Positions 27,901 through 33,900 of a DNA stretch of 64,000 bases are shown in pieces. Both the position numbers and the translations under genes were made by a program. How positions within the stretch are numbered: position 1 is the first letter of the stretch; every line of letters begins with the position of its first letter. Origin of the DNA: Salvelinus alpinus (taxonomy: Eukaryota > Chordata > Actinopteri > Salmoniformes > Salmonidae); the NCBI RefSeq assembly GCF_045679555.1, contig NC_092087.1, forward strand, positions 80,775,419 through 80,839,418, written 5' to 3'. The notes under the pieces are model-generated. The model worked only from the letters and a program-made list of their open reading frames with translations. It was not told where the DNA came from and ran no database searches.

Positions 27901-30900
27901 GCCTTTAATTCTAAATAAATCACTGACAGTGTCACCAGCAAAGCACCCCCACACCATCACAAATCCTCCTCCATGCTTCACGGTGGGAACCACACATGCA
28001 GAGATCATTCGTTCACCTACTCTGCGTCTCACAAAACACGGCGGTTTGAACCAAAAATCTCAAATTTGGACTCATCAGACCAAAAGGACAGATTTCCACC
28101 GGTCTAATGTCCATTGCTCGTGTTTCTTGGCCCAAGCAAGTCTCTTCTTCTTATTGGTTTCCTTAAGTAGGGGTTTCTTTGCAGCAATTTGACCATTCAC
28201 ACGGTCTCCTCTGAACAGCTGATGTTGAGATGTGTCTGTTACTTGAACTCTGTGACGCATTTATTTGGGCTGCAATTTCTGAGGCTGGTAACTCTAATGA
28301 ACGTATCCTCTGCAGCAGAGGTAACTCTGGGTCTTGCTTTCCTGTGGAGGTCGTCATGAGAGCCAGTTTCATCAAAGCGCTTGATGGTTTTTGCGACTGC
28401 ACTTGAAGAAAGTTCTTCAAATTTTACAGATTGACTGACCTTCATGTCAAAGGATCGGACCCTTTTTCCCAATTTTCGCCTAAAATGACATACACAAATC
28501 TAACCGCCTGTAGCTCAGGACCTGAAGCAAGGATATGAATATTCTTGATACAATTTGATTTGTTTAACACTTTTTTGGTTACTACATGATTCCATATGTG
28601 TTATTTCATACTTTTGATGTCTTCACTATTATTCTACAATGTAGAAAATAGTAAAAATAAAGAAAAACCCTGGAATGAGTAGGTGTGTCCAAACTTTTGA
28701 CTGGTACTGTATATTGAAATCGATTGATCAAAACTATTTGCTCAATGATCAATTTAAAGTAATGGATGAATGAAATATTACAGTAAGGCATAAATTCTAA
28801 ATATGCTTAATAAAATATCAGGAAAAAACAGAAAGGTTATATACTGTACAACGTTTTAGAAGACTGATGTTTTGAATGCCTTTTCCTTTTTAGAAATGTC
28901 ATTCTCAAGATGTCCATTCTGGCTATTCTCTGCTACTACTGGATGAAGGATGTGGCCAATACATTTTCAGTAAGTCCCTTTAAACCAAATCACATGCATG
29001 CTTTCAAAAATGTTTTTGATTGTCACTAATATCTACTGTATGTTCATCCACCACTTTGATTACAACCATGTGTCTTAGTGCTGGGAGTCCATCGTAGGAC
29101 AAGCCTTGTACAGACTGGTGATTATGGACTTCCTCTTCGTAATGTTAGGATCCTTCTTTGGAGAGTTCTTGAGCAAGTGAGTGGCATTTTCAAAACACAT
29201 TTTCCCATAACGTGTTCACTTAAAGCTAAAAAATGCTACATTATGCAGTAGAATTCTATATTGTAACTCATCTTTCTGTTTTGAGGGAAAGTTTCAGTGA
29301 GGCATCTCATAAGGGTTCATTGAAAAATGCTCTTCGGTAACTCCTTTGTTCTTTTCTCCACCAGTGTCATTGGGACTAAATGCATACAGAGCCTGGGAGT
29401 TCCAGAGTTTGACGTTGCCAGGAATGTCCTTGACCTGATCTATGCACAGACCCTGGCATGGTACTGACGTTATTTCATTACACTGTACTCTACTGTACTG
29501 TACTCTACTGGACTCTACTGTACTGTACTGTACTCTAATGGACTCTACTGTACTCTACTGTACTCTACTGTGCTCTACTGTACTCTACTGTACTGTACTG
29601 TACTCTACTGTACTGTACTGTGCTCTACTGTACTGTACTGTACTCTACTGGACTCTACTGTACTGTACTGTACTCTAATGGACTCTACTGTACTCTACTG
29701 TACTCTACTGTGCTCTACTGTACTCTACTGTACTGTACTGTACTCTACTGTACTGTACTGTGCTCTACTGTACTCTACTGTACTCTAATGGACTCTACTG
29801 TACTGTACTGTACTGTACTCTACTGTACTGTACAGTACTGTACTGTACTGTACTCTAATGGACTCTACTGGACTGTACTGTACTGTACTGGACTCTACTA
29901 CTGTACTGTACTGTACTGTACTGTACTGTACTCTACTGCACTGTACTGTACTGTACTCTACTGTGCTCTACTGTACTGGACTCTACTGTACTGTACTGTA
30001 CTGGACTCTACTGTACTCTACTCTACTGGACTCTACTGTACTGTGCTCTACTGTACTCTACTGTACTGTACCGTACTCTACTGTACTCTACTGTGCTCTA
30101 ATGTACTCTACTCTACTGTTCTGTGCTCTAATGTACTATACTCTACTGTACTCTACTCTACTGTACTGTGCTCTAATGTACTCTACACTACTGTACTCTA
30201 CTTTACTGTACTGTGCTCTAATGTACTCTACTGTACTGTGCTCTAATGTACTCTACTGTACAGTGCTCTACTGTAGTGGACTCTACTGTACTCTACTCTA
30301 ATGTACTGTACTGAGCTCTAATGTACTCTACTGTACTGAACTGTGCTGTCCTCAACTCTAATCTCTGTTAATCTATAGCTCCATCTATTTTCATAGTAAA
30401 ACATAACACAGTACTGTGGATGAGATATGGTCAATTTTTATAACCATGTTTTTCTGTCTGCAGGATCGGAATCTACTTCTCTCCCCTCCTCCCAGTGATA
30501 CAGATAATCAAGTTTTTCATCCTCTTCTACCTAAAGAAGGTAACCTGTTCAGTATGGTTCTTGTACCTAAAGAAGGTAACCTGTTCAGTATGGTTCTTCT
30601 TCCTAAAGAAGGTAACCTGTTCAGCACGGTTTTTCTACCTAAAGAAGGTACCCTGTTCAGTACGGTTCTTCTTCCTAAAGAAGGTAACCCGTTCAGTACG
30701 GTTCTTCTACCTAAAGAAGGTAACCCGTTCAGTACGGTTCTTCTACCTAAAGAAGGTAACCCGTTCAGTACGGTTCTTCTACCTAAAGAAGATAACCCGT
30801 TCAGTACGGTTCTTCTTCCTAAAGAAGGTAACCTGTTCAGTACGGTTCTTCTTCCTAAAGAAGGTAACCCGTTCAGTACGGTTCTTCTACCTAAAGAAGG

Positions 30901-33900
30901 TAACCTGTTCAGTATGGTTCTTCTTCCTAAAGAAGGTAACATGTTCAGTACGGTTCTTCTTCCTAAAGAAGGTAACCTGTTCAGTACGGTTCTTCTACCT
31001 AAAGAAGGTAACCTGTTCAGTACGGTTCCTCTACCTAAAGAAGGTAACCTGTTCAGTATGGTTCTTCTACCTAAAGAAGGTAACCTGTTCAGTACGGTTC
31101 CTCTACCTAAAGAAGGTAACCTGTTCAGTACGGTTCTTCTACCTAAAGAAGGTAACCTGTTCAGTACGGTTCTTCTACCTAAAGAAGGTAACCTGTTCAG
31201 TACGGTTCCTCTACCTAAAGAAGGTAACCTGTTCAGTACGGTTCTTCTACCTAAAGAAGGTAACAAGTTCAGTACGGTTCTTCTACCTAAAGAAGGTAAC
31301 CCGTTCAGTACGGTTCTTCTACCTAAAGAAGGTAACCTGTTCAGTACGGTTCTTCTACCTAAAGAAGGTAACCTGTTCAGTACGGTTCTTCTACCTAAAG
31401 AAGGTAACCTGTTCAGTACGGTTCTTCTACCTAAAGAAGGTAACCTGTTCAGTACGGTAGATAACATAGGCCCCTTAGCAGACACTTCTTATCCAAAGCA
31501 GTGAGTACATATTCAGTACAGTGAAAAAAAGGTATTTTATAGTACAGAGAGTGAGTACATTTTTAGTGTGGCAATGTGACCCCTGCAGGACTGGTTATTG
31601 CTAGTGCAGCACTCCAACCAACTGAGCCACACAGGACCATGGCTGACTCAGGTGACAGTAAGCTGAACCTTGGTGTTGATTCACTGCCCTAGATACCATG
31701 CCATAGCAGAATGGGCCAGGCTCGTGTTACTCTCTTCTGAAGAGGGTGCTGAAGGTTTCATGACACGGTTGAATGGCATAGAATTAGCTCTATTCATAGA
31801 TGGTAGCGATGGTCACTAGGATTTTACAATACAATGATGAAACATATATGAGTGTCCTGGGAATGAAAAGAGATGTTTCCCCTGTGGTATATACAGGGAA
31901 ATCATTACATGTTCATCAATTCATCTGGGGAAAAAACGACAAGTGGAAGGTGTCTGCAATAAAGGATTTAGTTGATCAAATACAATAACATGATACCTGT
32001 TAAAGGTCCCCAAAGCACACACATCCCTGGGTCACTCCTCTTTTCAGTTCGCTGCAACCAGCGACTGGAACAAGCTGCAACAAACACTCAAACTGGACAG
32101 TTTTATCTCAATCTCTTCATTCAAAGACTCGATCATGGACACTCTTCCTGACAGTTGTGGCTGCTTTGCGTGATGTAATGTTGTCTCTACCGTCTTGCCC
32201 TTTGTGCTGTTGTGCTGTGCCCAATAATGTTTGTACCATGTTTTGTACTGCTACCATGTTGTGTTGCTACCATGTTGGGTTGTCATGTGCTGCTGCCTTG
32301 CTTTGTTGTTGTCTTAGGTCTCTCTTTATGTAGTGTTGTCTCTGTTGTTGTGATGTGTGTTTTGTCCTATATTTATATTTTACATTTTTAATCACAGCCC
32401 CTCGTCCCCGCAGGAGGCCTTTTGCCTTTTGGTAAGCCGTCATTGTAAATAAGAATTTGTTCTTAACTGACTTGCCTAGTTAAATAAAGGTGAAATAAAA
32501 TACAAACAAATACCTCCCTGACAAATCAATAATTATTTTATTCCTGGTTAAGGTGCAGGTTAATTGGTACTCTCAGTTCTCCCTTATTGTCAACGGTCAT
32601 TGTTTGTTTACCTGTTCATCAAATCATGCCGTTGCCAAGACACCGTCAACAGGCTCCTCCTCTCTCTATCTCCCTCTCCAGCTCTGTAATGCCCTGTCTA
32701 TACTTTGTGTCCTCCAGGTCAGCCTGACCCAGAACTGCCAGCCCCCCAGGCGAGCCGGCAGGGCGGCTCAGATGCAAACCATCTTCATCGCTATCCTCTT
32801 CTTCCCTTCCTTCGTAGGGGCTCTGTCTATGGTGGCCTACACCGTGTGGACGTAGGTGTATAAGTGGTCAGAGCAAGGCTAGTCTAGGGACTTATGTTAT
32901 GTTAAGGCTGTCATAGATTAAGGCAAGGCCAAACAAACACCTGTAGATATATGGAGTGGTTCAGATTCCATCTAGTTCTGGATAAATATGACTTGTTCAG
33001 AAGAACTGTAGTCATTAATTGATAACCAAGAGATAAACTTGATTCAGTTTGGTTTAATTTTAGGGGCTGAGATAGTCTGTGGAATCATGCTGTTTGATTA
33101 GCAGCTATTCAAAAGCATGACGCTATACCTAAACCTTCCAGTAAGAAAGTTGAAAATGTGTTGAAAGTTGGTTAAATGAAAGTTGGTTGACTTTGGCTCC
33201 TTTTCTCTGACCTAAGCATTTCAAACTGCCATGTCTCCCTTGATCCCTCCCCCAGTCTGCCCCCCTCAGACAAGTGTGGGCCCTTCAGGGGCCTCAACAC
33301 CACCTTCAGTGCAATACAGATCTGGATAGACGATCTGAACGGGGTGGATGGGTTTCAGTGGACTGTCTGGATCTACCAGCACGTCATCAGGAGTGAGATA
33401 TTCTACTTCCTGGTCTCTCTCATCATCCTGTGAGTTCATCTTTGTTCATGTTGAGGTGGTTATGTTGGGTTAAAGTTGTGTTTATGAAGGTAACAAGTAG
33501 TTTTAAAGCGCAGTCTTACGGTAAAGTGACAGTTGTCTTGAAAATGTGATATAAGGCATAAACTTAACTTGATCATGATTCCTAGAAATTATTGATCGTT
33601 TGAGCTGTTTGTCAAAAGATTGACTTGTACATTTTGCTAGTCACACTTATCCAGAGCGACTTACAGGAGCACTTAGGCTGAAGTGCCTTGCTCAAGGGCA
33701 CATCGACCGATTTTTCACCTAGTCAGCTTAGTGATTCAAACCAGCGACCTTTCGGTTACTGGCCCAACGCTCTTAACCGCTAGGCTTCCTGCCTTGAAGC
33801 AGCATACTGAAGTCCTATCAAGCAATACATTCAGCTTTTATAACGCTGCCTACCGGGTCAAGCCTTCAAATACAATCTAGTGGCACTTTATGACATTAAG

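Follow-up and report, generated by a model that had tools for sequence, protein, structure and literature searches.

The analysed window, a 64,000-nucleotide stretch of Salvelinus alpinus contig NC_092087.1 (positions 80,775,419 to 80,839,418 of the forward strand), holds on its plus strand the fish gene tmc5, in which the end of exon 15 and the adjoining 5' splice site form the first unit of a 36-bp tandem array. Ordered tblastn pieces of the S. alpinus TMC5 record P0001, for which PF07810 is listed, span positions 12948-35491, and 1016 of its 1018 residues lie in exact matches of at least 8 residues to the plus-strand frames of the window; for a second S. alpinus TMC5 record (P0002), exact matches account for 995 of 1018 residues. 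By sequence orthology the gene is TMC5, and the gene identity, exon 15 boundary, phase and gain of 12 residues per unit that had been proposed in an initial annotation of the locus were supported by tblastn, the exact matches and a table of the repeat units.

At the exon 15 boundary, Tandem Repeats Finder (TRF) reported a single array with a period of 36, 26.0 copies, 95% matches, 0% indels and a score of 1683 (Table 1), and the unit table likewise contained no indels, with 27 differences from the consensus over 936 bases. The array begins inside the end of exon 15, the two having 17 bases in common (TCTTCTACCTAAAGAAG, 30523-30539); the overlap itself had been recognised in the initial annotation, where it was counted as 16 bases. 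The donor GT is present in 25 of the 26 units, as estimated there, with unit 8 (AAG/ATAACC; the slash marks the splice boundary) as the exception, and the donor 9-mer AAG/GTAACC is the same as in the first donor in 22 units, with units 4, 8, 12 and 21 deviating. When the window was searched for AAAGAAGGTAACC with at most 2 mismatches, 26 of the 27 matches were located inside the array, compared to an expectation from 100 shuffles of 2.14 matches per window (standard deviation 1.45). No Rfam matches at gathering scores were obtained for positions 29000-33500, and a 27-base piece of the repeat had no match among viral contigs. The element is an exon-end minisatellite carrying a 5' splice site, arranged in 26 head-to-tail units.

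Table 1. Positions of the tmc5 features around exon 15, in window coordinates
Feature	Position	Strand	Basis
36-bp minisatellite, 26 units, each of 17 exon 15 bases and 19 intron 15 bases	30523..31458	+	TRF, unit table
tmc5 exon 15, 76 nt	30464..30539	+	tblastn; acceptor score 6.8, 99.8th percentile of window AGs
First (usual) donor GT, AAG/GTAACC	30540..30541	+	direct YLKK-type end to exon 16 in 143/148 TMC5 clusters
25 copied donor positions, 36-bp spacing	30576..31441	+	unit 2 at 30576, unit 26 at 31440; GT missing only in unit 8, 30792
In-frame TAG closing the read-through frame	31458..31460	+	frame translation; corresponding end in coho model (VTCSLW)
tmc5 exon 14	29365..29460	+	tblastn of P0001; acceptor TTTTCTCCACCAG/TGTC; donor ATG/GTACTG
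tmc5 exon 16, ending ...VWT, end approximate	32718..32852	+	tblastn; acceptor CTATACTTTGTGTCCTCCAG/GTCA, score 5.7
Separate minisatellite of about 10 bp in intron 14, 21 bp past the exon 14 donor	29482..30337	.	TRF, 85.3 copies, score 992

The exon 15 frame stays open across the whole array up to the TAG, as described in the initial annotation, and the 36-bp unit is of a frame-keeping length. The openness is at most weak evidence of coding, and by itself no evidence of coding use, since a unit whose length is a multiple of three makes the open frame one single event and 3 of the 6 frames over the array are free of stops. In a coho model (P0025, described below), the protein ends with VTCSLW where the window reads VTCSVR followed by TAG, and the correspondence of these ends suggests that the TAG probably belonged to the original intron as its stop. 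When aligned with TMC-1 and TMC-2 chains from solved structures, the exon 15 segment falls in a conserved hydrophobic stretch, directly after which the array-encoded residues would come if added. The earlier placement of these residues at the end of a membrane stretch thereby held, while their cytoplasmic side follows from general TMC topology, by which we take the exon 15 stretch to be the cytoplasmic end of transmembrane helix 8 (TM8).

The exon 15 junction was surveyed in 148 TMC5 protein clusters, drawn from two protein searches with overlapping results, the top 120 of 1413 in one case and the top 120 of 871 in the other. The first search scored the 8000 candidates with the most words in common and had a range of up to about 1036 residues, longer proteins being covered by the second. 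In 143 clusters (140 by pattern and three, P0016, P0094 and P0131, by eye) a YLKK-type end leads directly to the exon 16 residues (VSLTQN and variants), which agrees with the earlier view of YLKK/VSLTQN as the usual junction, and all five Salvelinus records in the list show this direct first junction. Exon 15 is missing in three clusters, where P0052 ends in an intron-14 repeat, P0063 is partial and P0097 skips the exon. Two clusters, both salmonid (P0025 and P0026), continue as VTCSVW. The first of these, a coho TMC5 isoform X2 model on a 52.7-Mb sequence and the representative of 10 member sequences, contains 318 additional residues, equal to 26.5 units of 12, in which 27 of 27 V codons are retained, so that the GT is retained in the coho array too. 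Another coho record, P0024, whose upstream sequence is the same, continues straight into exon 16. The other, a Coregonus model, has one unit followed by exon 16; this unit comprises 15 residues (45 bp), which is 3 residues (9 bp) of exon more than the 36-bp unit. The model is poor and lacks other exons as well, and a second Coregonus record (P0122) has the direct junction. When only the array part of P0025 served as query (E up to 10, 4278 candidates), the sole match was P0025 itself, in a setting where isoforms with few units, or those within 90% clusters, would escape.

The simplest reading of these records would be one early boundary-spanning duplication before the split of char, salmon and whitefish, followed by a 9-bp loss toward char and coho. 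The copy number of the array probably differs between species. A tree was built from 23 TMC5 proteins of salmonids and outgroups, with the P0025 array and the additional P0026 unit removed beforehand; in it the two gene copies cluster by genus, and support is partial, with 9 of 20 inner branches starred. Exon 15 of the O. keta record P0016 carries NPVWFF in place of PLL, which resembles a piece of an array unit; conversion, insertion or an assembly fault are possible origins.

Within the array, 11 kinds of substitution distinguish the units, of which 9 are nonsynonymous, 2 are synonymous and none creates a stop. Random choice, with each transition weighted twice each transversion, would for the same 11 kinds give 7.5 nonsynonymous, 2.95 synonymous and 0.55 stop changes, and zero stops are expected by chance 56% of the time. 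One substitution kind falls in the donor GT and three fall in the donor 9-mer, compared to 0.61 and 2.76 expected, respectively. No purifying selection on the array peptide or on the donor was detected, at the low power afforded by 11 substitution kinds. The differences from the consensus number 20 in units 1-13 and 7 in units 14-26 (permutation 0.0026), and this excess divergence in the first half fits a more recent expansion towards the 3' end of the array.

Splice signals were scored with approximate donor and acceptor matrices and not with MaxEntScan. The first donor reached 3.0, which ranks it at the 97.7th percentile among all window GTs, with a U1 duplex of -6.5 kcal/mol. Acceptors were compared with 19 gene starts, each snapped to the nearest AG; the entry at 29090 (-6.0), an exon absent from the tblastn list, was probably snapped wrongly. 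The initial annotation had proposed that a TTCAG in each unit might act as an acceptor and allow 23-nt micro-exons. These sites score poorly (mean -4.8, maximum -3.6, compared to at least 1.6 for 18 of the 19 gene acceptors tried), 23 nt is not a multiple of three and would shift the frame, and the 13-nt intron left between neighbouring micro-exons is too short, for which reasons the micro-exons were rejected.

Coding variable number tandem repeats (VNTRs) vary protein length with copy number, and the copy number in tmc5 would likewise set protein length, with the difference that the tmc5 copies remain intron sequence unless splicing takes place at a downstream donor. A closer likeness is offered by the human gene IFI6 (6-16, G1P3), the minisatellite of which, going by the title of a 1995 paper by Turri, Cuin and Porter, reportedly has multiple splice donor sites, and which we take to start near the end of exon 2 with 26 units of 12 nt. 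Two downstream repeat units of IFI6 serve as donors, leading to three mRNA species, according to excerpts of PMC4526556. As in IFI6, the tmc5 repeat starts inside an exon end, its units carry the donor and the unit length keeps the frame, whereas the gene, the lineage and the unit length (36 bp instead of 12 bp) are different and use of the downstream donors is putative in tmc5. Given this close precedent, the tmc5 array represents a further case of a known architecture. Tandem duplication of AGGT segments is also a route of intron gain, with the Rogers model, ATP2A1, 24-bp repeats in fission yeast and a potato RNA-dependent RNA polymerase as examples in the excerpted text of PMC4974935. The tmc5 copies similarly carry AG/GT in units of a multiple of three, but they duplicate an existing exon-intron boundary and their acceptor part is weak: where such duplications supply both GT and AG, the tmc5 units have AAG/GT in 25 of 26 cases and a low acceptor score. 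A literature search of a limited collection found no paper joining tmc5 with a minisatellite or with a salmonid.

Judging from the gene models, the first donor is probably dominant, with downstream donor use or intron retention being minor and unselected. A short tandem duplication across the exon 15 donor would have arisen in the salmonid lineage and grown by repeat turnover into a series of almost identical 5' splice sites that keep the frame. In most transcripts exon 15 would stop at the first donor, and the whole array would be removed with intron 15. A minor share would keep at least one unit, each adding 12 residues after the TM8-like helix, or may instead retain intron 15 up to the TAG, and such transcripts would mostly represent splicing noise without detectable selection. 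Several observations weigh against this dominance. The gene models from which it is read themselves lean on homology, and unit-by-unit scoring, as suggested in the initial annotation, gave 22 of the 26 units the same score as the first donor, with U1 pairing that likewise reaches -6.5 kcal/mol. Where equal donors compete, the downstream one tends to win. No preference for the first donor emerged from the features of sequence and local folding that were tested, and this donor is not more accessible than its copies, ranking 11th, 25th and 22nd among the 26 units in three folding windows; an RNA structure exposing the first donor and hiding the copies was accordingly rejected.

A different outcome, which we consider unlikely, would be substantial and regulated use of several downstream donors, resulting in a set of TMC5 proteins whose TM8-TM9 loop is longer by 12n residues, with a range set by copy number. 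Salmonid tmc5 would then offer some 25 equal 5' splice sites in the same frame, arranged as a ladder in which heritable copy number and splice choice set loop length in 12-residue steps, and the IFI6 architecture would have evolved independently. The near-complete conservation of the donors among units, the frame that is open in both char and coho, the intact V codons of the coho array, the Coregonus model joining exactly one unit to exon 16 and the use of downstream repeat units as donors in human IFI6 (excerpts of PMC4526556) all point in this direction. However, no selection on peptide or donor was detected, 143 of the 148 clusters are without extra units, the Coregonus model is of poor quality next to a second record with the first junction, and the coho model, in running to the stop, is a better fit to intron retention than to donor choice. 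The latter model, ending in a would-be retained intron, is also consistent with a passive repeat whose U1 sites act as decoys and either raise intron 15 retention or prevent premature polyadenylation. Duplexes of -5.6 to -6.5 kcal/mol between the 5' end of U1 and 25 of the 26 units would suit such a role, but the two array parts tested show no stronger folding than shuffled sequences (RNA z -0.40 for 30900-31043, DNA z -0.83 for 30991-31062), and the decoy effect is considered improbable. Even less credit is given to splicing that leaves the mRNA unchanged, in which each AAGAAG/GTAACC would act as both acceptor and donor and so define an exon of zero length, a pattern of the kind seen in recursive splicing or AGGT-duplication introns, and units would be removed in 36-nt steps. 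An AG/GT after a pyrimidine-containing stretch is found in all units except unit 8, and in fission yeast, 24-bp repeats with duplicated AGGT segments have given rise to introns that extend over several of the copies (excerpts of PMC4974935). As acceptors, however, the AAGAAG sites have a mean score of -0.8, with a best score of 0.9, and stand at the 75th percentile of AGs, above the TTCAG sites but under 18 of the 19 gene acceptors tried. Finally, the copy number comes from this single assembly, and the array might in principle be an artefact without biological standing, a scenario named in the initial annotation; since the repeat recurs in separate records from coho and Coregonus, this is highly improbable.

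Further repeats are present in and around the gene. Three intronic arrays of tmc5 have a TRF score above 300 (starting at 29482, 30523 and 34406), and each of them begins no more than 25 bp from a 5' splice site (+21, -17 and +22, respectively). Only 2.5% of intronic positions lie that near one of the 19 donors (one of them guessed), giving a probability of 1.6e-5 if the arrays are independent, a post hoc figure for a set in which two arrays flank the same exon. The rainbow trout TMC5 model P0052 exits the gene after exon 14 into a repeat similar to that of intron 14, so that an array of this type is present in trout too. The last coding exon (35099-35419) contains 111-bp (37-residue) repeats, and the number of repeats in the C-terminal tail varies among salmonid records (for example P0026 and P0097 compared to P0001). 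A TMC-family paralogue, presumably tmc7 by gene order, lies on the minus strand (3924-4226); its corresponding exon ends AAAAAG/GTAACA at plus-strand coordinate 4022, and TRF of the window found no array starting at this boundary. Two further large minisatellites are located at 40698-42095 (45 bp x 31), with open frames of more than 500 amino acids on both strands, and at 45181-48056 (46 bp x 62).

With about two dozen near-identical donors at a fixed 36-nt spacing in one pre-mRNA, RNA from salmonids would reveal the rule by which the spliceosome chooses among equal 5' splice sites. Should use be confined to the first donor, tmc5 would be a clean example of a position-based preference for the first among many equal sites. 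Use of the copies would show a minisatellite route by which intron sequence becomes protein sequence, one unit per step.

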